Assembly (NCBI GenBank): GCA_024650045.1 | Contig: JANKMU010000002.1 | Location: 42,061-106,060, forward strand | From: Mycoplasmatota bacterium | GTDB taxonomy: Bacteria; Bacillota_I; Bacilli_A; Acholeplasmatales; Acholeplasmataceae | Direction of reading: 5' to 3' | DNA length: 64,000 bases | Part shown: piece by piece, positions 1 to 25,861 of the stretch | Numbering within the stretch: position 1 is the stretch's first letter | How the letters are laid out: each line of letters opens with the position of its first letter | The notes under the pieces: generated by a model | The model's input: only the letters and a program-made list of their open reading frames with translations | Database searches by the model: none | What the model was told of the DNA's origin: nothing | Program-made: the position numbers and the translations under genes

Positions 1-207
1 AAGAAGTTAAAGGAAAAACAACGTATTCAAAAACAAAAAGTGGTATCACAAGCAAGAAAACAAAAGCAAGAGGAAAAACGTAAATTAAGAGAAGAACAAA
101 AGAAGTTAGAAAAAGCTTCTAAGGCAAGAGTTAAGAAAGAAACAGTAAAAGTTAAAAAGCAAATGGATGAAAAACTCAAGAAAGAAAAGGCTAAACTAAG
201 CAAATAA
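1..207 (+). CDS. C-terminal end of a highly charged coiled-coil protein (5' partial)
   Basis: The frame is open from the first base and ends in TAA at 205-207. The 68 visible residues are almost all Lys, Glu, Gln, Arg and Ala in heptad-like spacing, so this is a charged coiled-coil tail. The same kind of Lys/Glu-rich tail ends the SipW-like signal peptidase at 993-1658, so this could be the cytoplasmic tail of another membrane protein of the export locus, but the domain that would show this lies outside the window. The next gene starts 21 bases downstream on the same strand, which suggests one operon. No function can be assigned. Confidence 0.6.
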   Translation, partial: KKLKEKQRIQKQKVVSQARKQKQEEKRKLREEQKKLEKASKARVKKETVKVKKQMDEKLKKEKAKLSK

Positions 208-228: not shown

Positions 229-981
229 ATGTCAAACAAAAAATATCAGTCACTTAATCGTTTGATCATGATTTCAATCGTATATTTTATCTTATCTTTA
301 GGCATTCTAACATCTGTAATCTATGCATGGTTTACCTTGACAAATTTAAACAGAACTGATTTAGTTTCACAAATCGCAGGTGTGGAAGCAGAGTATCAGT
401 TTTATGTATATAAGGATGAATCTCATACTGGAAGTTTAAACCCAACGTTAACTGACAATGTTTGTACAATTGGTGAAGATTTATGTTATGAATATATTCC
501 TAATCCTACCTATTCACATTTGATAGACGGATATGTTGCTCCTGGTGAAAGATTTTCTTTTGCAATTCGTATTGTCAGTGTTGGTGCAGCTGGTGGAATG
601 TTAAGACTTGATTTAAGTGGATTGGTTTCTTGGGGTTTTGATATTCCAGAAAATAAAATTCAAAGAGCTTTCTTTTATGAAGTAACAAAACTAGCATATA
701 TTAATAATGATATTGAATCAGTAGATTATAAAGATCATGAACCGATTGTTTATTATGCACAACATTTTCAGTATAATCATGATGGTATTTATCCCTTAAT
801 ATCAGATGTTCCTATGGGTGTTGAAAATGCAAGTAACTCAGTTTTAATTGTATTTTTTGATCTTTATTTTGATCCAACTATATATGGACAAACAATCGAT
901 GGAATATCACATGATAATAGTAATATTTTTATGAATCAGTTATTTATAATTAACTACATATTTATGAACATTTATTCTTAA
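229..981 (+). CDS. Exported TasA/camelysin-like protein with SipW-type signal peptide
   Basis: A 250-residue protein with an N-terminal hydrophobic segment at about residues 13-33 ending in a Tyr-Ala-Trp-Phe-Thr motif. This is the hallmark of signal peptides cut by SipW-type signal peptidases, as in Bacillus TasA and camelysin. The rest is a soluble, beta-rich region with no second membrane helix, so the mature protein is probably released outside the cell or assembled on its surface. The RBS GGTGGTGA sits just before the ATG. The SipW-like peptidase starts 11 bases downstream. Cys residues near positions 79 and 86 could form a disulfide. The family assignment rests on the signal peptide and neighbours; the mature part is too divergent to place by eye. 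Confidence 0.65.
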   Translation: MSNKKYQSLNRLIMISIVYFILSLGILTSVIYAWFTLTNLNRTDLVSQIAGVEAEYQFYVYKDESHTGSLNPTLTDNVCTIGEDLCYEYIPNPTYSHLIDGYVAPGERFSFAIRIVSVGAAGGMLRLDLSGLVSWGFDIPENKIQRAFFYEVTKLAYINNDIESVDYKDHEPIVYYAQHFQYNHDGIYPLISDVPMGVENASNSVLIVFFDLYFDPTIYGQTIDGISHDNSNIFMNQLFIINYIFMNIYS

Positions 982-992
982 AGGAGTCTCAA

Positions 993-1658
993 ATGAAAAA
1001 GATAATAGCTTATACATTTACAACCATTGCCATTTTAATATTTATCTTTTCCATCGCAATTATGTTTATTGGTTCAAGAGCTATGAGAAACAATGAACCA
1101 TTGTATATTTTTGGTTATACATTCTCAATTATTCCATCAGACTCAATGATTGGTGACCAAGAAGATTCACTAGATCGTTATGATGTTGCTATTATACGAG
1201 CTGCAAACTATGATGAAATTGAAATCGGTGATGTTGTTGTTTTCCAAAGTGAAGTCAGTGGTGTTGAATTACTAATCATCCATAGAGTTATTGGGTTACA
1301 TGAAGATGGTGGTTTTGAAACACAAGGTGATAATAACGATTTTATAGATCCTAATCCCGTAACTGAAGAAAACTTTCAAGGTATTTATTATTCAAAAATT
1401 ACATTCCTTAAACCGATTGCGAGCATCGCAGCAAATTCAAGAAATTTAATTTTCGGACTATTAAGTGTTGTTTTAATTGTCTTACTTGTTACTGAAGGTA
1501 TGCATATTATTAAAACGATTAGTAGAGAAAAAAAAGCAGAATTAGAAGAAAAACATCAGCAAGAATTAGCATCATTTAAAGAAAAAGAACGACAAAAAAT
1601 TAAAGATCAAATATATGAAGAAGAAAAAGCCAAAAATAAGACTAAAAATGAGTCTTAA
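993..1658 (+). CDS. sipW: SipW-like (ER-type, S26B) signal peptidase I
   Basis: A 221-residue membrane peptidase that cleaves signal peptides of exported proteins at the outer face of the membrane. There is an N-terminal helix at residues 4-27 and a second helix near residues 150-170, followed by a charged Lys/Glu-rich tail. The Ser-Asp-Ser-Met motif places the nucleophile at Ser51. The Ile-His-Arg-Val motif gives His97 in place of the Lys used by ordinary bacterial enzymes, so this is a Ser-His type as in archaea, the ER and Bacillus SipW. A Gly-Asp-Asn-Asn motif near residue 112 follows. Three proteins with SipW-type signal peptides flank it, and they are its likely substrates. The long charged C-terminal tail is unusual. 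Confidence 0.85.
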   Translation: MKKIIAYTFTTIAILIFIFSIAIMFIGSRAMRNNEPLYIFGYTFSIIPSDSMIGDQEDSLDRYDVAIIRAANYDEIEIGDVVVFQSEVSGVELLIIHRVIGLHEDGGFETQGDNNDFIDPNPVTEENFQGIYYSKITFLKPIASIAANSRNLIFGLLSVVLIVLLVTEGMHIIKTISREKKAELEEKHQQELASFKEKERQKIKDQIYEEEKAKNKTKNES

Positions 1659-1661: not shown

Positions 1662-1690
1662 TTGAAAAAATAAGCTTTTTGAAGTATAAT
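1662..1690 (+). promoter_or_regulatory. Promoter upstream of the c-di-GMP riboswitch
   Basis: TTGAAA at 1662-1667 and TATAAT at 1685-1690 are 17 bases apart, a near-consensus vegetative promoter. Transcription would start near 1697, about 30 bases before the riboswitch aptamer. This separates the following exported-protein genes from the signal peptidase upstream. Confidence 0.8.
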
Positions 1691-1724
1691 TAAATCAAGA
1701 TATATATTATATATATATCACAAA

Positions 1725-1821
1725 AAAAAGGGCAAAACTAGGGAAACCTAGTGACGCAAAGCTATAGGGCCTATAAACGGTAGCCAGTTGCATCTATTTA
1801 TTTAGATACGGCTGGCTTTTT
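1725..1821 (+). promoter_or_regulatory. Cyclic-di-GMP-I (GEMM-I) riboswitch with overlapping terminator
   Basis: The conserved parts of the GEMM-I aptamer are all readable. GGGCAAA (1730-1736) is followed by a six-base-pair hairpin closed by a GAAA tetraloop (1738-1753). Next come GACGCAAAGC (1753-1762), a second hairpin of GCTA (1761-1764) with TAGC (1781-1784), and a closing AGTTGC (1786-1791) that can pair with the 5' GCAA. An alternative stem, AGCCAG (1782-1787) with CTGGCT (1812-1817) extended by ATCTA/TAGAT, is followed by TTTTT and looks like an intrinsic terminator. Its left arm uses the 3' strands of the aptamer, so the two folds exclude each other. I therefore infer that ligand binding prevents termination (an ON switch). 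It lies directly before the exported-protein genes at 1856-10308. Confidence 0.9.
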
Positions 1822-1855
1822 GTATTTTTATAAACCAGTAAAAGGAGGCAAGTTG

Positions 1856-2512
1856 ATGAAACGTTATATATTATCAATTCTAACCATTATATTATTAATT
1901 GCATCGATTGCAACTATAACTTATGCATGGTTTACTTATGTTGAAAAAAAATCACTTGCTACATTTGAAGCTGGGGAAATATCAATTACAGCTGCTGCCA
2001 ATGATCAGTTGATTGTTGACAATATTTTGCTTGAAGATTTGGCATTTATTGATTATCAAAAAGATTTAATAGATAATCAGTCAGGACAATTTGATTTAAT
2101 GGCATCATCACTTACAATTACAATCCAAAACTCTGATCGTTCCGTATTAACCAGAAATAAGATTACTCTTAATGAACAAGGCACTCAAGATGGATTGCTT
2201 TATTTCTTAGTCTTGGATGGTGTAAATATTGGTGGCACAGCATTTATCAATACAAACTATCAATCACAGATACTATCAGTGATTTCAGGATATGCCACAA
2301 AAGAAGAACAGTTATTAGCAATTAGTAATTATAATCAACAAGTTTTAGATGAAATATATAATACGATTATTGGAGCATCAGATGTCTTAACTTTCCAAAT
2401 TGTATTTTGGGGTGACTATGATGAGTTAGTCAGTCCCGAAACTTATATGGATTCAACTTATAGTTTTAGTATTTTCATTGATACGATCAATTCAAAAGGC
2501 GAGGTGGTATAA
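1856..2512 (+). CDS. Riboswitch-controlled exported protein with SipW-type signal peptide
   Basis: A 218-residue protein. The start is ATG 1856, six bases after the strong RBS AAAGGAGG (1841-1848); an open frame upstream from 1820 runs through the riboswitch terminator and is not coding. The N-terminal hydrophobic segment ends in Tyr-Ala-Trp-Phe-Thr at about residues 24-28. A Phe-Glu-Ala-Gly-Glu-Ile motif follows, typical of the start of mature TasA/camelysin-type proteins. The remainder is soluble and lacks a membrane anchor. The last base of its stop codon is the first base of the next gene's ATG, so the two are translated together. Matrix fibre or pilin-like subunit is the likely role; this is inference from the signal peptide and the SipW-like peptidase nearby. 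Confidence 0.7.
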   Translation: MKRYILSILTIILLIASIATITYAWFTYVEKKSLATFEAGEISITAAANDQLIVDNILLEDLAFIDYQKDLIDNQSGQFDLMASSLTITIQNSDRSVLTRNKITLNEQGTQDGLLYFLVLDGVNIGGTAFINTNYQSQILSVISGYATKEEQLLAISNYNQQVLDEIYNTIIGASDVLTFQIVFWGDYDELVSPETYMDSTYSFSIFIDTINSKGEVV

Positions 2513-3195
2513 TGACATTTCGACTAAAAACAAGATTAATGACATTATCGCTTGTCTTAATATTGGTCTTATCAAGCTCGCTACTTGTTGTCTATGCTTA
2601 CTTTGTTAAGAAACAAGATCATGGCATTATTGTTGCAACCGGAGAATTTACAGTTGAAATTTTCGCATCATTTAATGATGTTGTGGTAAACACCGAAAGT
2701 CCATATTATGATGCTCAAAAGAATATTATTATTGTCAATGCATATGATCAGTTAAGCGAAAATTATATTGGCAACTTAAAAATTGACATTGGTATCACTC
2801 CAGAAGTTGCAGCACGTGTGAGAATTAAACTTCAAGACGAATGGGAACTCACCAGAATTTATTTAGATCAAAATCCTGAGTATCCAATTGACCCGGTGAT
2901 CGAAAATGTTTATCATACACCGAAAGGTAGTGGTTATTATCCGTTTTCATTACTTAAAATTAATCCAACATTTAATGGTATATATGATTTACAAGGTTAT
3001 ACATATATCAACCAAATTATTCCAAAAAACCAAACAACTATGATTCATTTTATAGACAGTGGAGATCGTTATCCAGCAAGAACAAATGAAGTTTTTTATG
3101 AAATGTGCTATGTCTATATTGATCTCATTGTTGATGTAGTTCAAGCAAATAGGTTTGTTGAAAAATGGGGAATTGAACCAGATTTCTTTGGATAG
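2512..3195 (+). CDS. Second riboswitch-controlled exported protein with SipW-type signal peptide
   Basis: A 227-residue protein with a basic N-terminus, a hydrophobic stretch at about residues 8-28 and a Tyr-Ala-Tyr-Phe motif at the expected SipW cleavage region. An Ala-Thr-Gly-Glu-Phe-Thr-Val segment follows, in the place of the AGxI/V motif of TasA-like proteins. The mature part is beta-rich and contains one Cys near residue 203. Its ATG overlaps the preceding stop by one base and the giant gene begins 30 bases after it, so the three genes form one operon behind the c-di-GMP riboswitch. Its function is probably structural at the cell surface. I do not recognise a specific family for the mature domain. 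Confidence 0.65.
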   Translation: MTFRLKTRLMTLSLVLILVLSSSLLVVYAYFVKKQDHGIIVATGEFTVEIFASFNDVVVNTESPYYDAQKNIIIVNAYDQLSENYIGNLKIDIGITPEVAARVRIKLQDEWELTRIYLDQNPEYPIDPVIENVYHTPKGSGYYPFSLLKINPTFNGIYDLQGYTYINQIIPKNQTTMIHFIDSGDRYPARTNEVFYEMCYVYIDLIVDVVQANRFVEKWGIEPDFFG

Positions 3196-3225: not shown

Positions 3226-6200
3226 ATGAAGAGAATATTATTCAAGAAAATGATATTAAGTCTTTTTATTGCTGTTGCTTTTTTGTTTTTAGTTAATCTG
3301 TTAGGGTTTCATGGAATTAAAGGTTTTGATTATCAAGAATCAAGTTCATGGACTGGTCATGACCTAGGATTTGTTCCTCAATCTGATGTCAATTTTGCAA
3401 GTCAATATGTACCTTTTGGTGATATTATTGAATCTGTCGAGTCTGTTGAATTAAATAAAAAGTATGTTATTGAATCAGCTTATGATTTATATATGTTTTC
3501 AGAACTTAGTCGTGGAGCACATAAAACAACTTATTTATCTCTTGATTACGTTCTTGGTGGAAACATTAATTACTATGAAATTGTTCAACAAAACATTAGT
3601 TATCGATATATACCTGTTGGGTTCCTAGAACCATTTACAGGTACTTTTGATGGGCAAGGTTATGAGATTACCAATCTATTTTTTCAATCAATCTTAAGCG
3701 AAGATGATTATAATAATAATTATCCTGGATTAAGATTTTTCGCTATGTTTTCTAAAGTAAGTTCAACTGGTGTCATTAAAAATTTAGGTTTGATAAACCC
3801 AATTATTATTCAACCAATTGAGTGGGGAATTATGGACCATGTAGCTATAGTCGCTGGTGAAAATTATGGCTTGATTGAAAATGTATATGTCATCGATGAA
3901 AGAGGAACGACTGCAGGACTTCATGTTGAAGGATCGTTTCGCATATCGGGATTAGTTTCAATTAATCAAGGTGTATTTAAAGATAGTTATATTGCTTCAC
4001 CTCATATTAAATCTTCAGCTGTTGTTGATAATGTTTCGACTCATGCTGTTTCATATTTAAACTTAGGAACTATCAGTCATGTTTATTATGATGAATCTAT
4101 TCTAGTCGATCAAGAAACAGTAACAACTATAGGTATAGGGTTAACAACTGAGCAATTTCAAGATGATACGTTCTTTTCTGAAGACTGGTATTTTAACGAT
4201 TCATATCATGGTCTTGCAAATGGATCTAATGGTCTAGCTTTACTAACATTAGATGATACATATCCAATTCTACAAGGTTTAAAAGTTAATGATACCAAGA
4301 TGTATATTACAAATGCTGTTGACTTTGTTTATATGAATAAACTTTTAAATACCTCAGGATACTTTAGAGATAGTCATTATCAAATAACTCATGATATTGA
4401 TATGAATCAGGTTTCAGAGACAGCTTATCAAGCAGCAAGTGTTGCCTTTACTGGGACTTTATCTAGTTCTGTTTCAAGTGAGGCGACTAGACTTTATGAA
4501 AGAAATGAAAGTCAAGGTGGCGATATCAATTATCATACCATTCTTGATTTAAGAATCACGATTGCATCAGAAGTTGGAAATTTCGCAAGTTATGCATTGT
4601 TCTCATCTTTCTTTGGTTCAGTTCAAAATCTTAATTTTGTTAATTACTCAATTCAGACAAGCGGTATTAGCAATTATACGAATAAAGTAAAAATTTTAGT
4701 AGGATCGATTGCAGGACAAATGAACTCAGGACTGATTGAAAATGTCCATGTTCACGCAAATATTTCAATTACACAATCACAAACAGATATGACAAAACTA
4801 TATGTCGGTGGTCTTGTTGGTGAAGGTAGTGGTTTGATTGATCACGCATCAACCAATGGAACATTAGTTCATGCCTTACAATCATATCATGCTAAAAGTA
4901 GTGGAAGTACAACCGGTGGATTTGTTGGACTTTCTCACGGATTAACTGTTGAATACGGATATAATGCACTTGCAATTACGGGCTTAGGATATTTAACTAC
5001 AAACACTTCTGTAACCTATATCGGTGGGTTAGTTGGTTATGGGCGAATCGACTCCATGTTAAAAGTTATTAATGAAGGTTTAATTATTTCACACGAGCAA
5101 ACTGGATATCTGCAAACATTATATGCTGGGGGAATTGTTGGATTAAGTTCTAATCAGTTAGCTACAGTTAAACAAATCTATAATGAAGGTAATGTGGATG
5201 TTGTTGTTAACAATCCAATGACACTGACGTTAGCAGGATTCGGCTTTGTTGATGGCTCTAATAAAGATATAGAATCTATATATGAATTTGTTAGTATTAC
5301 GAATAATGGACGCTTAAGAATGGTGTTGCCAACTGGAAATCAATTCAGTCAAACAGAACTAGAACAGTTTAATGTTTCACTGGCTGGTGTTATTGTAGCT
5401 GATCAAATAGATGCAGCTTTTTATGGTTTATTTAATGATAGAAACATTGGAATTGATATCAGTTTAGTTAATCAATTCGCTGGTGTTCTATCCATAACAA
5501 ATACAACTAATTCTTCAGTAACACAATCTTATAATACTGGTTTAATTAATGCTGTAACAGAGAATGTATTAACTGATGAAACAACAAAAATTTCTGGTAA
5601 CATTTTGGGTTCAAATATCGATTATAACCATCTTCGTAACGAAGGCGATATCAATATAGAGTTTAATCATAATACTGTTTATACCTCTGGAAATCTATAT
5701 GTATATGGATTGTTTGAAGAGGTTAGTCAAAACAAAACTGCCAATGAGGGCTACAATGGTGGTCATATTTCAGTTATCCAAAATCAAGCAAATACTTTAA
5801 ACTTAAATGTTTTTGTATCAGGTATTACCCATGCAAATAAAAATACCAATTATTTCCAAACACATGATATCAATCATATGACAATCGAAAATATGTCTGG
5901 TATTCATGGATCAATTGATAATGTATTAAATGATGGTAACATTTTAATTGATGGTTCATTTAATGGTTCAACAAGAGCTTCAGGTATCGTCATGATTAAC
6001 GAATCATTATTAACAACAGCAATCAATTTAGGTGATATGACTAACTATAACGATATTGCTTTAACTCATGGTGAAGTTGCTTCAGCTGGTATTGCATATT
6101 TACTTGCTGGTCAATATGCACAAGTCAAAGACTCTGCTAATTACGGAAAAATAGAAGCATTATCTTTAACATTAAATGGTTTTGCTCATGCTTCTGGTAT

Positions 6201-9200
6201 TGTTGTTAGAAATGATTTGAATGCTAACTTATCAATCGTTAGTAGTGGTACACTAAGTAAATATGCGAAAATTTTATTTAGTATTAACTATGGTGAAATC
6301 TATGCATATAGTGGAACAAGTGAATTATTATATGCAATAACCGATGAAACAAGATCTAAAGCATCTGGTATTTTTACATCTGGACTTTTGACCATTATGA
6401 ATACAATTAATTACGGAAACGTATATTCTAAATATTTGGCAGCAGGTATCTTTGGGTTCGTTTATTTAAATCGTTTTGGAACGATTCAATCCAATCAAGT
6501 TTATCTTGCAAATAATATTAATTATGGTATCACAAGAGAAATCATAGGCTATACAACTGATTATTCACTTAATCTCATTAGCACACCAACTAGAACTTCA
6601 TATAATGCATTTTCATCATTTATTGGTAAATTCCATACTGGAACAACAACTTGGGAGTTCTTATCGAACTCATCATATGCTTTATATCCTCTAGATTTAA
6701 TTAACTTTGGTTATAATCACAACTTCGATCCTATTGCAAATATGTTAGGTAATGCTCCAAGTACAACAATGGATGCTAACCTTGCAGGTGGAGAACCTAG
6801 AGGTCAAGGTAATGAATTGTTAATTGCAATTATAGAAAAATTATCTACAACAAATTTAAATGATCAATCGATGGCACCGTTTGCACCAAAAGAACTAGGG
6901 ACTCACCCTAAGGTTGCTATTTATGGGATGCCGATTCCTGAATTTGAAATGGATGATACAACAGAAGGTGTATTCCATCCGTTATTTATCTTTAGAAAAT
7001 TACCTGTAAGAACTTCAGGTCCTGATCAATATTTAAAAAATTATTTCGCTTATATGCCTTTAGATAAAGCGAACAGTGATTTAATTGATCGATTAGAAGA
7101 ACATACCAATCTAACTTATATGGGACTTTATGTATTATCAAGTAGTGAAGGCATTAATAATGGGATCTTTATTCCAGATCACATAGATTTAGATACATTA
7201 CATCCTCATCATTTAAATGAAGATCCTGATACAACATGGCTTGGTGTTAAAGAAGATACCAATAGTATTATTTATAAATTAACAACAGGCATGAGTCAAC
7301 TAGAAATCACCTATGCAACAACGATTTATGATTTAGAAATAATGCAAGTTGATTCAAACGGTAATCCTATTACGGATGGCTTAACATTAAGAAAACCTAT
7401 CATTGATGAAGACCGTGGCATGATCACTTATTACTTACCAAGTAACGCAACCATTATCAATCATGTTACATCAAGTCAAGTCTTGACGACTAGCTTTGTT
7501 GAAGCATCTGAAGGCGTGGGACGCAAAGTCCCCGATTATTATGATGCTAATTTAGGTGACTGGATTTATAAATGGGTTGGTGATTACAAAAAAGTAGGAG
7601 ACGATTTTGTAGCAATCGGTCCTTATGATACAGCGGGTACTGTTAACGTTAATTTTAGCACCACTCAGCAAACAACTGAATATAATAGAACGAATCAAAT
7701 CACAGTACCTGTATATTCAAGATCTGCAGTTTCTACAAATATTGCTGGATTGAATTATATCCATGATCATGTTGATCATATTTATAGCTGGACAGGTAAC
7801 CAAGGTAACTATCGCTATATCGGTACAGGATATACAAGAGGATCATATTCAAGTGCAAACCCAGGATATGGAGCATATCGTTTTATAACTCATACTAATC
7901 CGGGTACCAATACATTACCTTATTATATTAACGGAACATATGAATATGTAGGACCAAGTAAAGAGCTTGTTACTTACGTTGAATCAGAACAAAGTATTAA
8001 TACTGTATTTGATGATGCAGGTGTCTATTTCCAAGCTAATTTAGAACAAAGTACATATTTACTAGCTAGTGGAGCAACATTCTATGACAACGGATCACCT
8101 GTACTGACATCAGCAACCATACCTTTATCTTATGGTATTTATGACAGTTTAAATGACTCAAATGGTGATTTAATTGATAAATTGGAGTATCATTACGGTT
8201 CAGTTCGAGTCTTTTCAGAACAATATGATTCGATGAATCCAAGTACATATAGAGATTATCAAATCCGAATTATTAGAACTGCTGATCAATACTTAGATAG
8301 CTTAAATGCACTATCAGTTAATGGTATTAATGCAATGCCAACTTTTAGTGATTTTAGAGATGTTACAGCGACACAAGATATCCATTATGAAAAAAATGCT
8401 GATTTAGGTGTGATGAGCTTTTCTTACAGTATCTTAAATGCATCTAATGAATATAACGTATTACCTTTAATCAATTTATACAATGTTATAACTGATGAAG
8501 TTATCGATCCAACACTATATCAGTTGTTTAAAGGAGTTATTATCAATGAAAACCAATTTAATAACTTAACTGGTGTTTGGGGTATAGGAACAACAGTTAT
8601 TGATTTCGAGGTAACAGATAAACTTCCAAGTGGCGCTTATCGACTTGAGTTAGAACTTGTTACTGGTGAAATCGCAATGATTCATTTTAGTAAAATTGAA
8701 AGTTCTAATGGTTTCTTACTTGATATTACTTATCAAGGGAAAGTGGTTGTACCTGAAAGTGAAAATATTACATCCAATATTCCATTTGGTATTCATTATC
8801 TAGAATTAGATCAAAAAACGCATATCGTTAACTTTACGAACCTTGAGTCATTAACCAATATTTATGAAGAAGATTTAACCAATGGTTTACTTCCTGATTA
8901 TTTAGAGAATATGACGATATCTCCGTTTGCAACTCTAATATCTGTTGACTTAACGATTACAATGATAGATAGTTATCGCTATCGTTACACAATCACTTAT
9001 AACATTCAAGCAGAAGATGGAACGCCATTTACTTATACGCATATCTTAGAAGAATATGAAATATCAACAACACCTGTCTTTGTTTATCAAAATGGTGGAG
9101 AAGTAGAAAAACCTTATGGTGATTTATCCATTCGTTATAGTGAATCACCAACCATTCGCGTTGAATTAGATACAGACCATATTTATTTCCCACATGATGA

Positions 9201-10308
9201 GGTTTTAACTATGGATGCTACATTTGTTCCAGAAAATGGCACAGATGAAGCGATTGAAGATCAACATTATTTTATGAGTTTAATACCAGGTGTTGGTTAT
9301 CAAGTTGATTTTAATCAAAATACACCTATTGGATACTATTCAACTCATGCTGAATATGGACACTCCATTAGTTTATGGGGACAAACATTAAGTTGGAACT
9401 ATGTATTTGATACGATTTCAGCTCATAAACTTAAAAATGATGAAAGTATGCTAGTAAATATTACCTTTGTATCTGATACAGTATTTTCAGGGTTTAACAC
9501 GATTGTTGATACAGAAGTCATCACTGAACAAATGTATATAAATTACTTAGAATATCCAGAAACAAGAAAGATGTCAGTCTTGCCAACAACAGGTATTTAT
9601 TATGGTGATTATGCAAATTTAGCTAATTATTGGATTATTGGTCAAGTACAAAGAACTTCTTTAACTGCATATACACCAAACTTTGTTTTACCTGATGGAG
9701 CAATCATTAGAAAAGTCATCGACCAAGAAAATGTTGGCTACGAATATCAAAGTGAATCTTTAACAGCTGATTTTGAAGGAACTGATGGGGTTTTCAATTA
9801 TATTCAGTATAGAGTTTATGCACATGATTATGATGATTATCCAACAAACTATACGGATTATTTTGTTGCAGTTCAAGATGTTACGAATAATATCCGTTTT
9901 AACTTAACAGTCATTAATGAGACAACTGAAATATTTGATAAAATCTTTGTTAAAATCAATGTATGTCGTGTTCAAGAAGAAGGCGTTCCTTGTACAATTG
10001 ATGATATGATTTTAGCAATGAATGCTCTATCTTATTATGATGAAGCAACCGATAGCTATATTAATAATCAATTTCAAACAACTGCGTATGGTATCTATTT
10101 AATCTTTGTAGATCTACCAGTTGGTTATACGTTTACGGTTCAAGTGCAACAAGTATCTATCGATGGTAGTCAATTTTTCTTAGAAGATTCAATACTTCCA
10201 CGTAAGTATTATGTTACAGTAACGATTATAGAAGAAGCTTATGAAGAAGAATGGGGATATCAAGAAATTGTTGATTATGCTCCAGTAGTTGCACCTCAAG
10301 GAGATTAA
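3226..10308 (+). CDS. Giant secreted surface protein with GLUG-like beta-helix repeats
   Basis: A 2360-residue protein. Residues 1-30 form a basic-plus-hydrophobic signal sequence. Residues 130-160 contain a Gly-Thr-Phe-Asp-Gly-Gln-Gly segment typical of the start of GLUG-type beta-helices. Residues about 490-1130 repeat units of the type Gly-Gly-Leu-Val-Gly (for example near 527 and 598) and Asn-x-Gly-x-Ile/Val, as in bacterial adhesins with stacked beta-strand coils. The C-terminal half (about 1150-2360) is beta-rich and shows no clear repeats. There is no C-terminal membrane helix, no LPXTG motif and almost no Cys, so it must be released or held by partners. The RBS AGAGGTGA precedes the ATG. 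It is the last gene before a terminator. Adhesin or matrix protein is the best reading. Confidence 0.75.
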   Translation: MKRILFKKMILSLFIAVAFLFLVNLLGFHGIKGFDYQESSSWTGHDLGFVPQSDVNFASQYVPFGDIIESVESVELNKKYVIESAYDLYMFSELSRGAHKTTYLSLDYVLGGNINYYEIVQQNISYRYIPVGFLEPFTGTFDGQGYEITNLFFQSILSEDDYNNNYPGLRFFAMFSKVSSTGVIKNLGLINPIIIQPIEWGIMDHVAIVAGENYGLIENVYVIDERGTTAGLHVEGSFRISGLVSINQGVFKDSYIASPHIKSSAVVDNVSTHAVSYLNLGTISHVYYDESILVDQETVTTIGIGLTTEQFQDDTFFSEDWYFNDSYHGLANGSNGLALLTLDDTYPILQGLKVNDTKMYITNAVDFVYMNKLLNTSGYFRDSHYQITHDIDMNQVSETAYQAASVAFTGTLSSSVSSEATRLYERNESQGGDINYHTILDLRITIASEVGNFASYALFSSFFGSVQNLNFVNYSIQTSGISNYTNKVKILVGSIAGQMNSGLIENVHVHANISITQSQTDMTKLYVGGLVGEGSGLIDHASTNGTLVHALQSYHAKSSGSTTGGFVGLSHGLTVEYGYNALAITGLGYLTTNTSVTYIGGLVGYGRIDSMLKVINEGLIISHEQTGYLQTLYAGGIVGLSSNQLATVKQIYNEGNVDVVVNNPMTLTLAGFGFVDGSNKDIESIYEFVSITNNGRLRMVLPTGNQFSQTELEQFNVSLAGVIVADQIDAAFYGLFNDRNIGIDISLVNQFAGVLSITNTTNSSVTQSYNTGLINAVTENVLTDETTKISGNILGSNIDYNHLRNEGDINIEFNHNTVYTSGNLYVYGLFEEVSQNKTANEGYNGGHISVIQNQANTLNLNVFVSGITHANKNTNYFQTHDINHMTIENMSGIHGSIDNVLNDGNILIDGSFNGSTRASGIVMINESLLTTAINLGDMTNYNDIALTHGEVASAGIAYLLAGQYAQVKDSANYGKIEALSLTLNGFAHASGIVVRNDLNANLSIVSSGTLSKYAKILFSINYGEIYAYSGTSELLYAITDETRSKASGIFTSGLLTIMNTINYGNVYSKYLAAGIFGFVYLNRFGTIQSNQVYLANNINYGITREIIGYTTDYSLNLISTPTRTSYNAFSSFIGKFHTGTTTWEFLSNSSYALYPLDLINFGYNHNFDPIANMLGNAPSTTMDANLAGGEPRGQGNELLIAIIEKLSTTNLNDQSMAPFAPKELGTHPKVAIYGMPIPEFEMDDTTEGVFHPLFIFRKLPVRTSGPDQYLKNYFAYMPLDKANSDLIDRLEEHTNLTYMGLYVLSSSEGINNGIFIPDHIDLDTLHPHHLNEDPDTTWLGVKEDTNSIIYKLTTGMSQLEITYATTIYDLEIMQVDSNGNPITDGLTLRKPIIDEDRGMITYYLPSNATIINHVTSSQVLTTSFVEASEGVGRKVPDYYDANLGDWIYKWVGDYKKVGDDFVAIGPYDTAGTVNVNFSTTQQTTEYNRTNQITVPVYSRSAVSTNIAGLNYIHDHVDHIYSWTGNQGNYRYIGTGYTRGSYSSANPGYGAYRFITHTNPGTNTLPYYINGTYEYVGPSKELVTYVESEQSINTVFDDAGVYFQANLEQSTYLLASGATFYDNGSPVLTSATIPLSYGIYDSLNDSNGDLIDKLEYHYGSVRVFSEQYDSMNPSTYRDYQIRIIRTADQYLDSLNALSVNGINAMPTFSDFRDVTATQDIHYEKNADLGVMSFSYSILNASNEYNVLPLINLYNVITDEVIDPTLYQLFKGVIINENQFNNLTGVWGIGTTVIDFEVTDKLPSGAYRLELELVTGEIAMIHFSKIESSNGFLLDITYQGKVVVPESENITSNIPFGIHYLELDQKTHIVNFTNLESLTNIYEEDLTNGLLPDYLENMTISPFATLISVDLTITMIDSYRYRYTITYNIQAEDGTPFTYTHILEEYEISTTPVFVYQNGGEVEKPYGDLSIRYSESPTIRVELDTDHIYFPHDEVLTMDATFVPENGTDEAIEDQHYFMSLIPGVGYQVDFNQNTPIGYYSTHAEYGHSISLWGQTLSWNYVFDTISAHKLKNDESMLVNITFVSDTVFSGFNTIVDTEVITEQMYINYLEYPETRKMSVLPTTGIYYGDYANLANYWIIGQVQRTSLTAYTPNFVLPDGAIIRKVIDQENVGYEYQSESLTADFEGTDGVFNYIQYRVYAHDYDDYPTNYTDYFVAVQDVTNNIRFNLTVINETTEIFDKIFVKINVCRVQEEGVPCTIDDMILAMNALSYYDEATDSYINNQFQTTAYGIYLIFVDLPVGYTFTVQVQQVSIDGSQFFLEDSILPRKYYVTVTIIEEAYEEEWGYQEIVDYAPVVAPQGD

Positions 10309-18983: not shown

Positions 18984-21695
18984 ATGTATATGATTGAAAA
19001 AGTATACCAAAAAAGTATTGATGACATTAAGAAACAATTATCAGTTAATCTAGATAAAGGCTTATCAAATAAAGAGGCTTTATTAAAACTAGAAAAAGAT
19101 GGTAAAAATAGACTGAAAAGTGCAAAAAAAGTTTCTGCTTTTAAACTGTTCATTTATCAATTTAAGAGCTTAGTTATGCTATTATTATCAGCAGCTGCGA
19201 TAGCATCTTTTTTTATTGGAGAAACAATTGAAGCAATAGCAGTATTGGTTGTTATTTTCATTACTGCATTAGTAGGTTATGTCATGGAATATAAAGCAGG
19301 TCAGGCTATTGAAGCATTAAAGAAAACAGTAAAAAATGAGACGAATGTATTAAGAGATGGAACAGTAACTACGATATTGACTGAAGATTTAGTTGTTGGT
19401 GATATTGTTGATTTAGATGAAGGTGATAAAGTTCCAGCAGATGGTAGAATTTTTGATGTCCAAGGTCTATCAGTTGATGAATCGATGTTGACTGGTGAGT
19501 CAGATATGGTAAGTAAAAATATTGACAAAATTGATGAAGATGTCCCTTTAGCTGAGAGATCTAACATGGTGTTTATGGGAACTTATATTATTAAAGGTGA
19601 TGCAAAAATGATTGTTACAGCTACTGGTTCTGATACGGAAGTAGGTAACATTGCATCATTACTCAGTGAAACAAAAGATGAAGATACACCACTAGAAAAA
19701 AGACTAGAACAAACAGGTAAGTTTTTAATTTTGATTACTATAATCATTACAGTTATCATTGCTATAGTAGGATATTTTTCTGGTTATGGTCTAGAGTTTA
19801 TGTTACGAACTGCTATAGCTTTAGCGATTGCTGCTGTACCTGAAGGTTTACCCGCAGCAGCAACAATCACACTCGCCATTGGTATGAAGAGAATGGCTAA
19901 ACATAACGCATTATTAAGAAATTTACCTGCTGTAGAAACATTAGGATCCGCTACAGTTTTATGTACAGACAAAACAGGTACGTTAACAGAAAATGAGATG
20001 ACACTACAAAAACTTGTATCATTTGACAGAAATATAGAAATTGAAGGTACTGGTTACTCACTTAAGGGTAAGTTTATCGAAAACAATGAGGAAATCAAAC
20101 CTCTCGATGATCAACTCGTTACATTAATGCTTAAGGTTGGTTTATTATGTAATGAAGCTGAGTTACAAAAAGATGATCAAGGTGATGACCAAGTTGTTGG
20201 AGATCCTACAGAAGGTGCATTGCTGGTTGCAGGTCGAAAAGCAAATCTTACAAAACAAGATTTAGAAAAAACATATGAATATATTGACTCCATTCCTTTT
20301 GATCCTGATAAGATGTTTATGGCTGTAGAGTATAAAGACTCCGATGGTCAAAGATTTATTGCATTAAAAGGAGCACCAAGCATCTTACTATCATATTCAA
20401 GTTATTATGAACAAAATGGAGCAAAGAAGCTAAAGAAAAAAGATAAACATAGATTTAAAAAATTAAATAAAAAACTTGCTAAAAATCGTTATCGAGTATT
20501 AGGTTTAGCTTATAAGATTGTTGATAATCAATCGTTAAATTTAGAGGAACTCGTTCAAAAAGACATGGTTTTCTTAGGTTTAACAGCCATGCTTGATCCA
20601 GCTCGAGAAGGCATTGAAGAAAGTATTCAAACTGCAAAACGTGCTGGTATAAAAACGATTATGCTTACTGGTGATCAAGAAGAAACAGCAATTGGAATTG
20701 GGAAGAAAATAGGATTAACAGTTGATGAAGACTTATTACTAGATGGTAAATCAATATCTGATTTATCAGAAGAAGACTTTAAAGAAACATTAAAACATAA
20801 CACAATATATGCACGTGTTACGCCTGAAGATAAATTATTGATAGTTAAAGGTTTAAAAGAAAATAATGAAATTGTCGCGATGACAGGCGATGGTGTCAAC
20901 GACGCACCAGCACTAAAAATGGCTGATATAGGTATCGCAATGGGTAAAAGAGGTACGTCAGTAGCAAAAGAAGCATCTGATATGATTTTACTAGATGATC
21001 GTTATGAAACGATTTTAGAAGCAGTCAGACAAGGACGAGTTATTTTTGATAACATTCAAAAGTTTATTCATTATTTGTTAACTTGTAATTTTAGTGAAAT
21101 CATGTTTATTTTCTTTGCACTTTTGATTGGTATACCCATACCATTAATAGCTTTGCAAATATTATGGCTAAATGTTGTAACTGGTGTTTTTCCTGCGTTA
21201 TCAATGGCATGGGAGATTCCAGAAGATCATGTTATGAATCAACCTCCTAGAATACCTGGATCACCAATCATTACGAAAGAATATAAGATAAAGATAGGTT
21301 ATCAAGGTGTGTTAATAGCTTTAGGTCCATTAATCGTTTATTTGTTTGTATTAAATCTTGGATACTCTGTTGAAATATCTAGAACAGTTGGATTTATGAC
21401 GCTAGCGATTGTTCATCTTTTACAAATCTTTAACACAAGAAGACGCAATGGTCTTGGCTTTGATCAGTCATTTATAAAAAATCGTCCATTGATACTTGCG
21501 ATGATATTGACATTTTTCCTACAAATAGTAGCTGTATATTTCCCACCTTTACAACACATATTGAAAACAGAATCATTATCTCTACTTTTATGGGTATATA
21601 TATGGATAGGTGCAATTTTACCTATTCTTATGATGCAAATAATATCATTGTTAAAATCAATAATGGGCAATGAAAATAAAAGTCAGTCAACATAA
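18984..21695 (+). CDS. P-type (P2-like) cation-transporting ATPase
   Basis: A 903-residue ion pump of the Ca2+/Na+,K+ type: actuator domain with Thr-Gly-Glu-Ser, phosphorylation motif Asp-Lys-Thr-Gly-Thr with the catalytic Asp329, nucleotide-binding domain, and the hinge Thr-Gly-Asp-Gly-Val-Asn-Asp-Ala-Pro. About ten membrane helices are visible. M4 has the ion-site motif Val-Pro-Glu-Gly-Leu-Pro. In M6 the motif reads Asn-Val-Val-Thr-Gly with Gly734 where Ca2+ pumps have a ligand Asp, so calcium is not certain. The RBS GGAGG is 6 bases before ATG. It stands alone between its own promoter and terminator. Annotation pipelines would probably call it a calcium ATPase; I leave the ion open. Confidence 0.88.
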   Translation: MYMIEKVYQKSIDDIKKQLSVNLDKGLSNKEALLKLEKDGKNRLKSAKKVSAFKLFIYQFKSLVMLLLSAAAIASFFIGETIEAIAVLVVIFITALVGYVMEYKAGQAIEALKKTVKNETNVLRDGTVTTILTEDLVVGDIVDLDEGDKVPADGRIFDVQGLSVDESMLTGESDMVSKNIDKIDEDVPLAERSNMVFMGTYIIKGDAKMIVTATGSDTEVGNIASLLSETKDEDTPLEKRLEQTGKFLILITIIITVIIAIVGYFSGYGLEFMLRTAIALAIAAVPEGLPAAATITLAIGMKRMAKHNALLRNLPAVETLGSATVLCTDKTGTLTENEMTLQKLVSFDRNIEIEGTGYSLKGKFIENNEEIKPLDDQLVTLMLKVGLLCNEAELQKDDQGDDQVVGDPTEGALLVAGRKANLTKQDLEKTYEYIDSIPFDPDKMFMAVEYKDSDGQRFIALKGAPSILLSYSSYYEQNGAKKLKKKDKHRFKKLNKKLAKNRYRVLGLAYKIVDNQSLNLEELVQKDMVFLGLTAMLDPAREGIEESIQTAKRAGIKTIMLTGDQEETAIGIGKKIGLTVDEDLLLDGKSISDLSEEDFKETLKHNTIYARVTPEDKLLIVKGLKENNEIVAMTGDGVNDAPALKMADIGIAMGKRGTSVAKEASDMILLDDRYETILEAVRQGRVIFDNIQKFIHYLLTCNFSEIMFIFFALLIGIPIPLIALQILWLNVVTGVFPALSMAWEIPEDHVMNQPPRIPGSPIITKEYKIKIGYQGVLIALGPLIVYLFVLNLGYSVEISRTVGFMTLAIVHLLQIFNTRRRNGLGFDQSFIKNRPLILAMILTFFLQIVAVYFPPLQHILKTESLSLLLWVYIWIGAILPILMMQIISLLKSIMGNENKSQST

Positions 21696-21714
21696 TAATA
21701 ACTAAATCGTTTAT

Positions 21715-21750
21715 AGATAGTTCTAAAATTGATTAGAGCTATCTTTTTTT
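21715..21750 (+). terminator. Terminator after the P-type ATPase gene
   Basis: The stem arm AGATAGTTCTA (21715-21725) pairs with TAGAGCTATCT (21734-21744), with one G-T pair, and is followed by a run of T to 21750. Confidence 0.88.
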
Positions 21751-21806
21751 ATTTATAGATTGAATTAAATATCAAAATAAGATAGAATAAGCATGACAAT
21801 AAAAAC

Positions 21807-21828
21807 AGTGTCCGAAATAACAGACACT
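21807..21828. repeat. Inverted repeat before the MATE gene
   Basis: AGTGTC (21807-21812) and GACACT (21823-21828) are perfect inverted arms 10 bases apart, 20 bases before the MATE start codon. The 11-base string AACAGTGTCCG here (21804-21814) recurs in the uxaC leader at 23388-23398. It could be an operator or a leader hairpin. Confidence 0.4.
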
Positions 21829-21847
21829 AAAAAATGAGATTATAAAT

Positions 21848-23257
21848 ATGAACATCGATAGACCATTATCAAGCAAGGAAAAACAAAAAAGAGAATATAT
21901 TTTAAATGGAAACCTGTGGAGGGTTGTTTTATATATTACTGCTCCATTAGCAGTTTATGGGTTGTTCAACTATCTATATGGTTTTTTTGATTTGTTAATG
22001 GTTTCACACATTGGTGGAAATGAAATTGCTTCTGTTGTTTTTATCGATGAAATAAAGAATGCGATTATGGCATTTGGTGGTGGTATTGCTATAGGTGGGA
22101 CCGTTATTGTTGCTAGACATTACGGAGCAGGAAAAATAGAAGAAGCAAGAAGAAATGCAGGAGCTTCTTTTAGTTTAGCGTTTGTTGTCAGTAGTATTAT
22201 AGTTTTGATTACATTATTATTTGGAAGGCAGTTATTAGAGTTATTGAATGCACCAGAAGAAATGATAGAAGCTGGTTTAGGATACTTCAATATTCAAATG
22301 ATATCAACGTCATTAATCGCTGTCAATAGTGTCTTTATCGGCTTAGAAAAGGCAAAAGGCAATACAATCTTAATTCTGGTTTTGAATGTAGTAGCGATGA
22401 TTATTAAGTTAATTTTATCAGCTATATTTGTCTTTGTATTAGGCAAAGGAGCAACTCATGTAGCATTAGCAACTTTAATTGCTCAAGGTTTACTCATGAT
22501 TGTTGCATTAGGGATAATGTTTAGTAAAAATAATGCTTTTCAAATAAGATTTAAAGAATTGGGGTTTAAAAAGATTTATATATTACCAATATTAAGTTTT
22601 TCAATTCCAGTATTTGCAGGTAAGTTTTTATTTAGTTTAGGTAAAGTGATGGTCAATAGCATGGCAGCCATTTATGGTCCTTTAGCGGTTGCAGCATTTG
22701 GGATTGCGATGAAGCTTGGTGGTGGACCAGGATCGATGGCAATTGTTTTTGGTGAAACAGAGACGAGTATCATCAGTCAAAATCTAGGAAACCAAAATTT
22801 AAAAAGAGCAATGAAAACTTATGTTATTTCACACGTGTATGCTTTAATTATAGGAGGAAGTGCATTAATATTAGTTTCATCGATGATGGACTATTTGTTA
22901 CCATTTTTCACAACAAGTACAGATCCTATTTTTAGAAAGATGATTGAGGATATTTATTTATGGGAAAAATTTTCTGTCTTAACATCTTCATCGATTGCTG
23001 TGATTACTGGATTATTTATAGGATTCAAATATTCAAAAATTGCATTTTTGTTAAATGCAGTAAGATTATTTATTTTTAGAATTCCAGTTTTATGGTTGCT
23101 TCAATATTATGGAATAGGTTATATTGCACTGGGATATGTAATGTTTATAAGCAATATTTTGACTATGATAGTGGCATTTATTGTATTATTTATTTTCTAC
23201 ATAAAAACTAAAAACTATGGATATATGGATATGCAGATGGCAGAAGTAAAAGCATAA
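21848..23257 (+). CDS. MATE-family multidrug/toxin exporter
   Basis: A 469-residue membrane protein with twelve predicted helices in two similar halves. MATE features include the N-terminal Trp-Arg-Val-Val-Leu-Tyr-Ile-Thr-Ala-Pro followed by a Gly-Leu-Phe-Asn turn, and Gly-Gly-Gly-Ile-Ala-Ile-Gly-Gly in the second helix. MATE proteins export drugs or metabolites in exchange for Na+ or H+. No adjacent regulator is present; an inverted repeat lies 20 bases upstream. Visible Shine-Dalgarno is weak (GAGAT). The substrate cannot be predicted. Confidence 0.85.
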   Translation: MNIDRPLSSKEKQKREYILNGNLWRVVLYITAPLAVYGLFNYLYGFFDLLMVSHIGGNEIASVVFIDEIKNAIMAFGGGIAIGGTVIVARHYGAGKIEEARRNAGASFSLAFVVSSIIVLITLLFGRQLLELLNAPEEMIEAGLGYFNIQMISTSLIAVNSVFIGLEKAKGNTILILVLNVVAMIIKLILSAIFVFVLGKGATHVALATLIAQGLLMIVALGIMFSKNNAFQIRFKELGFKKIYILPILSFSIPVFAGKFLFSLGKVMVNSMAAIYGPLAVAAFGIAMKLGGGPGSMAIVFGETETSIISQNLGNQNLKRAMKTYVISHVYALIIGGSALILVSSMMDYLLPFFTTSTDPIFRKMIEDIYLWEKFSVLTSSSIAVITGLFIGFKYSKIAFLLNAVRLFIFRIPVLWLLQYYGIGYIALGYVMFISNILTMIVAFIVLFIFYIKTKNYGYMDMQMAEVKA

Positions 23258-23345
23258 GTATATAAAAGTAATGATGATTATTTACTGAAACATAATGAAA
23301 ATTCTTTCTTCATAATATATTATGAAAGCGTATGTCAAAAAAATG

Positions 23346-23362
23346 TTGACAACGGTTTCATA
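23346..23362. promoter_or_regulatory. Catabolite-responsive element (cre)-like site
   Basis: The 17 bases match the Bacillus subtilis cre consensus WTGNNARCGNWWWCAWW at every defined position (TTGACAACGGTTTCATA). CcpA with phosphorylated HPr binds such sites when preferred sugars are present. The site overlaps the -35 box, so binding would repress uxaC. No ccpA gene lies in this window. Confidence 0.65.
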
Positions 23363-23374
23363 TAATGGTAAAAT
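23346..23374 (+). promoter_or_regulatory. uxaC: Promoter of uxaC
   Basis: TTGACA (23346-23351) and TAAAAT (23369-23374) with a 17-base spacer. The start point would be near 23381, giving a long leader of about 165 bases. A cre-like site covers the -35 box and part of the spacer. Confidence 0.75.
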
Positions 23375-23395
23375 AAACTTAGATATAAACAGTGT

Positions 23396-23425
23396 CCGTA
23401 TATAGAGACGGTCTAGAATATACGG
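23396..23425. repeat. Inverted repeat in the uxaC leader
   Basis: CCGTATAT (23396-23403) and ATATACGG (23418-23425) are perfect inverted arms, with AGAC/GTCT pairing again inside (23406-23409 and 23411-23414). It starts about 15 bases after the predicted transcription start. It may be an operator for a uronate regulator such as the IclR protein at 37061, or a leader hairpin; there is no T tract, so it is not a terminator. The rest of the 23258-23548 gap shows nothing else I can name. Confidence 0.5.
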
Positions 23426-23548
23426 TAATCAAAATACAAAGATTTAGGAAGAACATATAATGAATCATCAATTGGCATATATATAGCACAAGATGATTTC
23501 TTGTAATGTACCTATCTAATAATTAATAAGTGTTCAAGGAGAACAGCC

Positions 23549-24943
23549 ATGAAACCTTTTATTCACGATGATTTTTTATTGCATAATGGAGTTGCAAAAA
23601 AGCTATTTCATTCACACGCTAATAAAATGCCAATCATAGATTATCATTGTCATCTAGATCCAAAAGAGATCTATGAAGATAAAAAATTCAGAAACTTATT
23701 TGATGCTTGGTTATCAGGTGACCACTATAAGTGGCGATTAATGAGAGCAAATGGCGTTTCTGAAGATTATATAACCGGAAATAAACCAGAATACGATAAA
23801 TTTTTAAAGTGGGCAGAAGTTGTTCCAACACTTATAGGTAATCCACTTTATCATTGGACTCATTTTGAGTTAACTAGATTTTTTGGAATTGACACATTAC
23901 TTAGCCCAGAAACAGCAGAAGACATTTATAATGAAGTCAATCAAAAACTAGAAACGCTAACTTCTAGAAAATTGATTGAGATGAGTAATGTTGATGTTAT
24001 ATGTACAACAGATGATCCAATTGATTCACTAGAGTGGCATGACAAACTGAATGAAGATCAAACATTTAAGACAAAAGTATTACCTGCATTTAGACCAGAT
24101 AAAGCCATCGGAATTGATTTACCTTGGTTTCAGGAATGGGTTCTTAAGTTAAGTAAAGTTGTTGGATATTCATTATCTAGTGTTGATTTATTAAAACAAG
24201 CTCTTATAGAAAGAATAGATTTCTTTCACGAGAGAGGATGCAGACTATCTGATCATGCTCTAGATGTTGTAGCTTACGAAAAAGCAACACATGAAGAAAT
24301 TTCATTAATTTATGAAAAAGCAATGCAACATGAAGACTTAACAGCTAGAGAGATTAGAAAATATAAAGGTTATTTACTAGTGTTCTTAGGTCAAGCATAT
24401 AAAAAAAGAGACTGGGTTCAACAATATCACATTGGTGCCCTCAGAAACTTATCAGAACGTATGTTGAAAAATTTAGGACCAGATACTGGATTTGATGCGA
24501 TTAATGATGGATTTATTGCTAAACCACTTAGTCAATTGATGGATGCACTTGATGCAACAGGGGATCTCCCTAAAACGATATTATACACTTTGAATCCTAG
24601 AGATTTTGAAGTTGCAATCACAATTATGCAAGCATTTCAAGGTGGTGGTATTGCTGGAAAGATTCAATTTGGTTCAGCTTGGTGGTTCTTAGATACTATT
24701 GATGGCATTACTAAGCAAATAAAAGCTTTGGCAAATAATGGTTTATTATCAAGATTTGTTGGTATGTTAACAGACTCGAGAAGTTTCCTATCTTATCCAA
24801 GACATGAATACTTTAGAAGATTGTTATGTAACATTATTGGCGAGCAAGTAGAAATGGGATATTTCCCTGAAGATTACACGTTATTAAGTAAAATGGTTGA
24901 AGACATCTCGTATTACAATGCGAAAAACTATTTTAGCTTTTAA
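23549..24943 (+). CDS. uxaC: Uronate isomerase (D-galacturonate to D-tagaturonate)
   Basis: A 464-residue enzyme of the glucuronate isomerase family, normal in length (about 470). The metal-binding His-Cys-His-Leu-Asp-Pro-Lys-Glu motif lies near residue 33, and the C-terminal part has Leu-Thr-Asp-Ser-Arg-Ser-Phe-Leu-Ser-Tyr-Pro-Arg-His, a signature of UxaC. It converts galacturonate or glucuronate to the keto forms in the cytoplasm. The RBS is AAGGAGA. The gene is monocistronic and ends convergently on the pectinesterase, overlapping it by four bases. The following enzymes (UxaB, UxaA) are not in the window. Confidence 0.95.
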   Translation: MKPFIHDDFLLHNGVAKKLFHSHANKMPIIDYHCHLDPKEIYEDKKFRNLFDAWLSGDHYKWRLMRANGVSEDYITGNKPEYDKFLKWAEVVPTLIGNPLYHWTHFELTRFFGIDTLLSPETAEDIYNEVNQKLETLTSRKLIEMSNVDVICTTDDPIDSLEWHDKLNEDQTFKTKVLPAFRPDKAIGIDLPWFQEWVLKLSKVVGYSLSSVDLLKQALIERIDFFHERGCRLSDHALDVVAYEKATHEEISLIYEKAMQHEDLTAREIRKYKGYLLVFLGQAYKKRDWVQQYHIGALRNLSERMLKNLGPDTGFDAINDGFIAKPLSQLMDALDATGDLPKTILYTLNPRDFEVAITIMQAFQGGGIAGKIQFGSAWWFLDTIDGITKQIKALANNGLLSRFVGMLTDSRSFLSYPRHEYFRRLLCNIIGEQVEMGYFPEDYTLLSKMVEDISYYNAKNYFSF

Positions 24944-25836
24944 TCATTTATGGAGCAATTAAAGTTATCCAATATATAAAGCTTTAGTTGCTCCATCCCC
25001 TCCGTTTTTAGTTCCATGGAATACATAGATTCGATATAGGGATATTCAAAGAATCGATAATTGCTTTTCTCCCAAGTATCATATCTTTGTTTAGCAAAGT
25101 GACCTGTAAACGTAGAGTTGATAAAAATAGATGATCCATAATCTCTCCAAGGTCTTGCAAGATAAACTTCATCTATTGTTTTAGAAATGATTTGACATTC
25201 AGAAAAGATTAGACCGTATGGCATAGATTGATAGGTTGATGTTGCAGCAATATATCCTTTGGATAGTGCAACAATCGTTGATTGATGAAATAAAGCAGTA
25301 CCACTACCAAAGATAAAATCAACATCACCTTCTATATAACAATGTTTAAAATAGTGATGAAGTGGTTTAGTTTGTCTTTCCTCAATGGGTAGAAAATCAT
25401 CATAACGCTTAGTTAAATCAATTGGAAGTGGACCAACGAAAAGTGTGTCTTGGTGACCGAGTAACTTGCAGTTAATGACTCTCGTATGATTGCCATATAA
25501 AGAAAGAGCAATTGCTTGACCAATGGTCAACCCTGATCCAGCAGTATTTTCTATAGTTAGATGATTTAATTCAACATAATCACCTAAAATCATGACTGTA
25601 GGAGTACGAAACGTATTATAAAGCAATCCATCTTCATGCATTTTATAACTATAATCGTTATAGGAAATAACGGATTGTCTGGATTTAGAACCTATTATTT
25701 TTAAATGATTATGCTTTATGCGAAGTTTTTGAACATAAACTCCGGGTTCTAGATGAATCTCTAAAGTTTCGCTTAAAGGATAACCATTCATGATTTCTTG
25801 GATATTATCAGTTGGATTAAGATAGAGTTTGATCAT
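24940..25836 (-). CDS. Pectin methylesterase (CE8), cytoplasmic form
   Basis: A 298-residue enzyme that removes methyl groups from pectin, releasing methanol. The right-handed beta-helix family motifs are all present: Gly-Gln-Ala-Ile-Ala-Leu, Gly-His-Gln-Asp-Thr-Leu with the catalytic Asp, Asp-Phe-Ile-Phe-Gly with the nucleophile Asp, and Ala-Arg-Pro-Trp-Arg-Asp-Tyr. I chose the ATG at 25836 because AAAGGAGA lies 5 bases before it. A Met five codons upstream would use that RBS as coding sequence. There is no signal peptide, so it should act inside the cell on imported oligogalacturonides. It is divergent from the transporter operon with a 47-base gap. Confidence 0.92.
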   Translation of the reverse strand: MIKLYLNPTDNIQEIMNGYPLSETLEIHLEPGVYVQKLRIKHNHLKIIGSKSRQSVISYNDYSYKMHEDGLLYNTFRTPTVMILGDYVELNHLTIENTAGSGLTIGQAIALSLYGNHTRVINCKLLGHQDTLFVGPLPIDLTKRYDDFLPIEERQTKPLHHYFKHCYIEGDVDFIFGSGTALFHQSTIVALSKGYIAATSTYQSMPYGLIFSECQIISKTIDEVYLARPWRDYGSSIFINSTFTGHFAKQRYDTWEKSNYRFFEYPYIESMYSMELKTEGMEQLKLYILDNFNCSIND

Positions 25837-25861
25837 AGTATCTCCTTTCAAATCTATCTAT

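Follow-up and report, generated by a model that had tools for sequence, protein, structure and literature searches.

A c-di-GMP-I riboswitch at the second of two checkpoints in a SipW-type export locus of Acholeplasmatales

Results

Genes and leader elements in the window

The window, by which we mean the whole 64,000-nucleotide stretch under analysis, opens in the closing genes of one operon and continues, from position 1662, with the leader and genes of another. The features of this region are the following.

1..207, + strand: 3′ end of the gene for a DUF2357 coiled-coil (McrC-like) protein, with its gene start at L007:18344
229..981, + strand: T250, SipW-type exported protein of 250 aa, YAWFT motif
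993..1658, + strand: SipWb, SipW-like archaeal-type signal peptidase I (TIGR02228, 60.3 bits, cut-off 51.85)
1662..1690, + strand: sigma-70-type promoter, TTGAAA-17-TATAAT
1699..1719, + strand: AT-rich hairpin that opens the leader, from the fold of 1690–1835
1721..1795, + strand: c-di-GMP-I (GEMM-I) aptamer, RF01051
1782..1821, + strand: intrinsic terminator with U run, its left arm (from 1782) being the 3′ strand of the aptamer
1841..1848, + strand: Shine-Dalgarno sequence AAAGGAGG, read from the sequence
1856..2512, + strand: T218, SipW-type exported protein of 218 aa, YAWFT motif
2512..3195, + strand: T227, SipW-type exported protein of 227 aa, YAYF motif
3226..10308, + strand: giant exported adhesin-like protein of 2360 aa, no Pfam match

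SipWb is the last gene of an upstream riboswitch-controlled operon. The genes beyond the leader fit the preliminary description of this DNA, which had placed two SipW-type exported proteins and then a giant surface protein downstream of the riboswitch: T218, T227 and the 2360-residue protein each begin with a hydrophobic N-terminal signal sequence, with the SipW-type YAWF/YAYF motif in the first two. T218 scored 16.9 bits against TIGR04088, below the cut-off of 19, and its start is likely the ATG at 1856, behind AAAGGAGG, rather than the TTG at 1820.

The promoter matches 11 of the 12 consensus bases, in keeping with its earlier characterization as near-perfect, and is the best of 13 promoter-like sites between 1500 and 3300; because that number of sites matches the expectation from shuffled sequence (11.1 ± 3.7), it is only the quality and position of this site that argue for it. 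The 146-nucleotide leader folded better than 200 of 200 shuffles (z = −5.4).

At 1721–1795, on the + strand, the Rfam model RF01051 aligned over its full length (model positions 1–87) with a score of 63.7 bits and an E value of 3.8e-10 for the whole window, well above the gathering score of 35 bits, which upholds the identification of a GEMM-I aptamer first made from the sequence alone. The GNRA loop reported with it is a GAAA tetraloop at 1743–1746. By alignment, the canonical ligand-contact bases are G1732, A1759 and C1791, which we take to be G20, A47 and C92 in Vc2 numbering, and the window riboswitch is an ordinary member of the RF01051 family. A chance match is ruled out by the E value together with the orthologous positions of such elements in dozens of genomes.

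The 3′ strand of the aptamer forms the left arm of a terminator

The terminator hairpin, AGCCAGUUGCAUCU...AGAUACGGCUGGCU at 1782–1817 with a U run to 1821 (−18.4 kcal/mol), was the dominant structure when the leader was folded. A simple terminator scan reported none, which we do not count against the hairpin because its bulged stem falls outside the rules of the scan. The left arm takes in aptamer bases 1782–1791, among them the counterpart of Vc2 C92 in the alignment, as the preliminary description had proposed when it drew the terminator from the aptamer's 3′ strands. In the folding model, the C1784–G1815 pair of the terminator formed with a probability of 0.999 without ligand, and forcing the aptamer helices P2 and P3 abolished the terminator. 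Because the left arm is the 3′ strand of the aptamer, the pair is so probable and P2/P3 remove the hairpin, the terminator and the ligand-bound aptamer would be mutually exclusive, with OFF as the predicted default state. The model, which includes neither ligand nor tertiary contacts, favors the terminator over the aptamer fold by ~12 kcal/mol; switching must therefore depend on co-transcriptional kinetics and ligand.

The mutually exclusive folds predict an ON switch, in the window as in most relatives. In 95 of 103 elements of the order we found a U-run hairpin whose 5′ arm begins inside the aptamer (an approximate count, since some of the predicted hairpins are long and composite), and most of the overlapping terminators begin at an identical AGCC. 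We think it very unlikely that the element is instead an OFF switch or a translational control through which c-di-GMP would lower surface-protein expression. Riboswitches of the c-di-GMP-I class are known in either sign, and the Shine-Dalgarno sequence lies just 20 bases past the terminator, but that sequence falls outside both alternative folds, and the use of the aptamer 3′ strand as the terminator left arm, repeated in most of the 103 elements, points to ON logic. The same ON logic was proposed and reporter-tested for Bc3-5 of B. thuringiensis, and tandem c-di-GMP-I elements built on it made ON control stricter and more digital in reporters (PMC4759541).

Two riboswitch checkpoints in one locus

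The genome carries five c-di-GMP-I aptamers. Two of them (C22:35015 and C22:35150) stand in tandem ~8.8 kb upstream of the window element, outside the window, each with its own overlapping terminator. From this pair the locus runs through the genes for the signal-bearing proteins T235, T305 and T322, a SipW-like peptidase and a 511-residue membrane McrB-like protein, and then through those for a ~620-residue DUF2357 coiled-coil protein, T250 and a second SipW-like peptidase to the window element. The locus has two riboswitch checkpoints, and the window element is the second of them.

A possibility that we take seriously, while leaning against it, is that this second checkpoint serves mainly as an intra-operon attenuator, transcripts of the cargo continuing from the upstream promoter and the window promoter contributing little. 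The second aptamer of several relatives starts 0–16 bases past the SipWb stop codon, too close for an intergenic promoter to fit, but in the window a good promoter stands between SipWb and the aptamer. Because of those closely set aptamers, species may differ in whether the second operon uses its own promoter or read-through.

The remaining aptamers, C39:53043 and C11:95335, also stand ahead of SipW-type exported proteins, and each of the genome's four aptamer-led units opens with signal-bearing exported proteins. Behind aptamer clusters, an ad hoc SipW-type signal pattern occurred within the first four co-directional genes in 66 of 82 cases; among 50 other genes of the window it occurred in none. 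The operon on C39 (L008:7044–13342), which is kept in relatives, encodes two AYW-type exported proteins, a CBM_5_12 protein and two SipW-like peptidases. On C11 (L009:7336–8632) the aptamer, whose terminator is weaker or built differently, precedes a single GLUG-motif exported protein (FAFWAS). The genome also has a lysine riboswitch aptamer, at L006:5815–5962 (64.2 bits).

The arrangement is conserved across the order

The order [1–4 aptamers]–T235–T305–T322–SipWa–McrB-like–DUF2357–(T250)–SipWb–[1–3 aptamers]–cargo is conserved across genera and families. Its machinery is constant, whereas the cargo of the second checkpoint varies: a giant protein in some genomes, proteins of 277 and 628 residues or others elsewhere. 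In 80 loci of McrB-like relatives there were 113 matches to a model built from 46 aptamers, every one on the same strand as the gene; loci of the cultured carriers Peloplasma aerotolerans, Acholeplasma oculi, A. granularum and Paracholeplasma vituli were included. An aptamer lay upstream in 31 of the 43 loci with at least 8 kb of upstream sequence, and the remaining 12 were mostly riboswitch-free sister copies. Across 61 genomes of the order, 37 had both the aptamer and a full-length McrB-like gene, 4 the aptamer only, 0 the gene only and 20 neither (p = 1.7e-12, in a test that ignores shared ancestry). The GGDEF median was 15 in aptamer carriers versus 2 in the other genomes, again with a p-value that ignores shared ancestry.

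GEMM-I control of TasA-like proteins in a probably wall-less organism had been called unusual at the outset. The literature we searched contained no c-di-GMP riboswitch ahead of a SipW-type locus. The pairing of aptamer and SipW-type locus is no lone oddity: it is the rule in Acholeplasmatales. An Acholeplasma-type McrB-like gene (64% identity) also turned up on JAKQLT010000168.1 (L134), probably a contaminating contig, in a metagenome-assembled genome labeled Candidatus Omnitrophota.

The McrB-like and DUF2357 proteins resemble CoCoPALMs

By profile, the 511-residue protein matched E. coli McrB structures (E = 2.5e-4), and all 80 of 80 McrB-like homologues carried a shortened NxD motif, GTAN(K/R)DDS, in place of NxxD. 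The protein has one transmembrane segment (residues 58–76) followed by a charged helical stretch. DUF2357 was detected in 11 of 14 partner proteins (best E = 1.9e-12), the coiled coil of the partner being judged only from its Lys/Glu-rich C-terminal sequence, and signal peptidases are linked to the McrB-like/DUF2357 genes and conserved in relatives. The CoCoPALM clade, named in 2024 in the CoCoNuT paper and deferred there to a later one, combines an NxD GTPase that has an FtsB-like transmembrane part with coiled coils and linked signal peptidases, and its discoverers drew a link to signal peptidases and pilus assembly (PMC11090510). Judged by these sequence features, the locus matches the CoCoPALM type, with an NxD McrB-like protein bearing a transmembrane segment, a DUF2357 coiled-coil partner and linked signal peptidases; it differs in its link to riboswitches and c-di-GMP, which is absent from that paper, where the word riboswitch does not occur (PMC11090510).

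Type IV restriction is where McrB and DUF2357 domains typically occur (PMC11090510), and the pair might on that account be a defense system that merely shares the operon and has no part in surface assembly. We consider this unlikely, since the pair holds an order-wide fixed place between two SipW-like peptidases and exported proteins, the partner shows DUF2357 only, a nuclease domain not being found in it, and CoCoPALMs were tied to peptidases and pilus assembly by their discoverers. We infer that the McrB-like protein has a role in assembly. A second, distant McrB-like protein of ~900 residues (G000:C1:24133–25140; E = 1e-74) occurs in many relatives, some of which are without the riboswitch locus.

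Exported proteins and peptidases

Both peptidases scored above the TIGR02228 cut-off of 51.85, which places them in the archaeal-type family (60.3 and 66.8 bits), and below that of the NCBI SipW equivalog NF046067 (59.7 and 81.9 versus 190 bits). The exported proteins of the locus have SipW-type signals in common and no Pfam family, and the Pfam TasA/camelysin domain had no match in T218, T227 or T250. AlphaFold2 models of T227 and T322 reached a pLDDT of ~82 each. A fold search of the PDB returned no significant match for T227 and none for T322, the TasA fiber 8aur coming third for T322 (E = 0.037, probability 0.44, TM 0.23–0.29) with several donor-strand pilins ranked below it. TasA identity found no support from Pfam, from profile comparison with solved structures or from Foldseek, and we therefore drop the TasA-like label of the preliminary description, which reflected the signal peptide alone. 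A fiber function of the exported proteins is plausible. Like the tapA-sipW-tasA locus of B. subtilis, the locus joins SipW-type signal peptides to a dedicated archaeal-type signal peptidase; unlike it, the locus gave no Pfam or significant TasA fold match and includes McrB-like/DUF2357 genes and riboswitches.

The host has c-di-GMP enzymes and is very probably wall-less

The genome (1.89 Mb, 99.94% complete) encodes an McrB-like protein 96% identical to its counterpart in Peloplasma aerotolerans M4Ah, and the source organism belongs to the same genus as that species, in Acholeplasmatales. We searched the genome for diguanylate cyclases, a check that had been proposed along with the riboswitch, and found 15 GGDEF domains together with 5 EAL domains. 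A lack of c-di-GMP enzymes is thereby ruled out, and c-di-GMP can therefore be made and degraded.

PBP-transpeptidase and FtsW/RodA families were not found in this 99.94% complete genome; the same searches found them in 10 of 14 control genomes. Because these genes are missing the host is very probably wall-less, as had been guessed from the window, and electron microscopy has shown the congener P. aerotolerans to lack a wall (PMC11122141). The Peloplasma description makes no mention of c-di-GMP signaling (PMC11122141).

A model for joint control of machinery and cargo

We read the window element as a canonical class-I c-di-GMP riboswitch that acts as an antitermination ON switch and is the second of two checkpoints, so that machinery and surface cargo are switched together (probability roughly 0.85). 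Without ligand, the downstream strand would capture the aptamer 3′ strand (1782–1791) and form the terminator ahead of the coding region. c-di-GMP made by GGDEF proteins would bind the nascent aptamer and keep 1782–1791 out of the terminator, and at high c-di-GMP the polymerase would read on into T218, T227 and the giant adhesin-like protein. The upstream tandem array would act likewise on the machinery operon. A rise in c-di-GMP would thus turn on the processing and assembly machinery and its cargo together, giving the wall-less cell a surface layer or fiber.

With Bc3-5 and RF01051 the system shares the aptamer fold, the contact bases, a terminator formed from the aptamer 3′ strand and the placing of tandem complete riboswitches ahead of some operons (PMC4759541). 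It differs in its wall-less mollicute host, in having two separate riboswitch sites per locus, in targeting a SipW-type export locus rather than cspABCDE, and in the U that first-operon aptamers often carry at the C92 position. In the B. cereus group, too, a c-di-GMP-I element lies upstream of surface adhesins, the collagen adhesins (PMC4933901, PMC7423583); there the targets are adhesin genes in walled cells, whereas here export machinery and cargo are both gated.

c-di-GMP signaling has been little treated for Mollicutes, and here an order of wall-less bacteria has retained as many as two dozen GGDEF genes along with a riboswitch regulon directed largely at SipW-type surface proteins. What is new is that riboswitches are tied, across an order of wall-less bacteria, to a CoCoPALM-type export locus. 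This link provides a first regulatory input for CoCoPALM-type McrBC derivatives and suggests the hypothesis that c-di-GMP induces the assembly of a surface structure.

Ligand-pairing bases and a sister locus

First-operon aptamers had U at the C92 position in 37 of 43 cases by one count and 34 of 54 by another, as do those at L007:12955–13028 and L007:13090–13163, whereas second-operon aptamers had C throughout (27 of 27 and 40 of 40). G20 was invariant across 46 aligned elements. C92 mutants of Vc2 have been crystallized, mutants at G20/C92 have a changed ligand preference, and the G20A/C92U double mutant binds c-di-AMP (PMC9049102, PMC7288161). Because that double mutant does so, it is possible, by analogy, that the U92 aptamers have a changed affinity or specificity. 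It is highly improbable, in our judgment, that the window or first-operon aptamers sense another cyclic dinucleotide such as 3′,3′-cGAMP: the U in most first-operon aptamers and the shifted preference of the Vc2 mutants (PMC9049102, PMC7288161) speak for this, but the window element has both G20 and C92, G20 does not vary among the aligned elements, and GGDEF genes are more numerous in aptamer carriers.

A paralogous sister locus lies directly upstream (C22 ~20,480–34,731, corresponding to L006:14042–20000 and L007:1–12671). It is without an aptamer, a DUF2357 gene and SipWb, and it stands behind two GGDEF-EAL genes, an arrangement conserved in seven further genomes. One of these genes has a degenerate GGDEF site and the full set of EAL catalytic motifs, and the other is missing the second aspartate of DDFG; going by these motifs, one protein is likely an active phosphodiesterase and the other degenerate. 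A hidden or decayed aptamer ahead of the sister locus was rejected, as Rfam gave none there and our own unfiltered model reached 9.4 bits at best.

More speculatively, and with considerable doubt, we suggest that the two checkpoints are tuned differently, by U versus C at the ligand-pairing base, and that the sister and riboswitch loci are alternative surface systems. If so, machinery and cargo would respond at different concentrations during a single rise in c-di-GMP or, alternatively, the first operon would partly answer another cyclic dinucleotide, and the sister-linked 861-residue EAL protein could deplete c-di-GMP and thereby shut off the riboswitch locus.

In the sister leader, a terminator follows the GGDEF-EAL pair, separating it from the sister operon, and a promoter-like TGATA(T/G)AAT is conserved. 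With TTAAT-type repeats at L006:18300–18484, this motif is possibly the site of a regulator.
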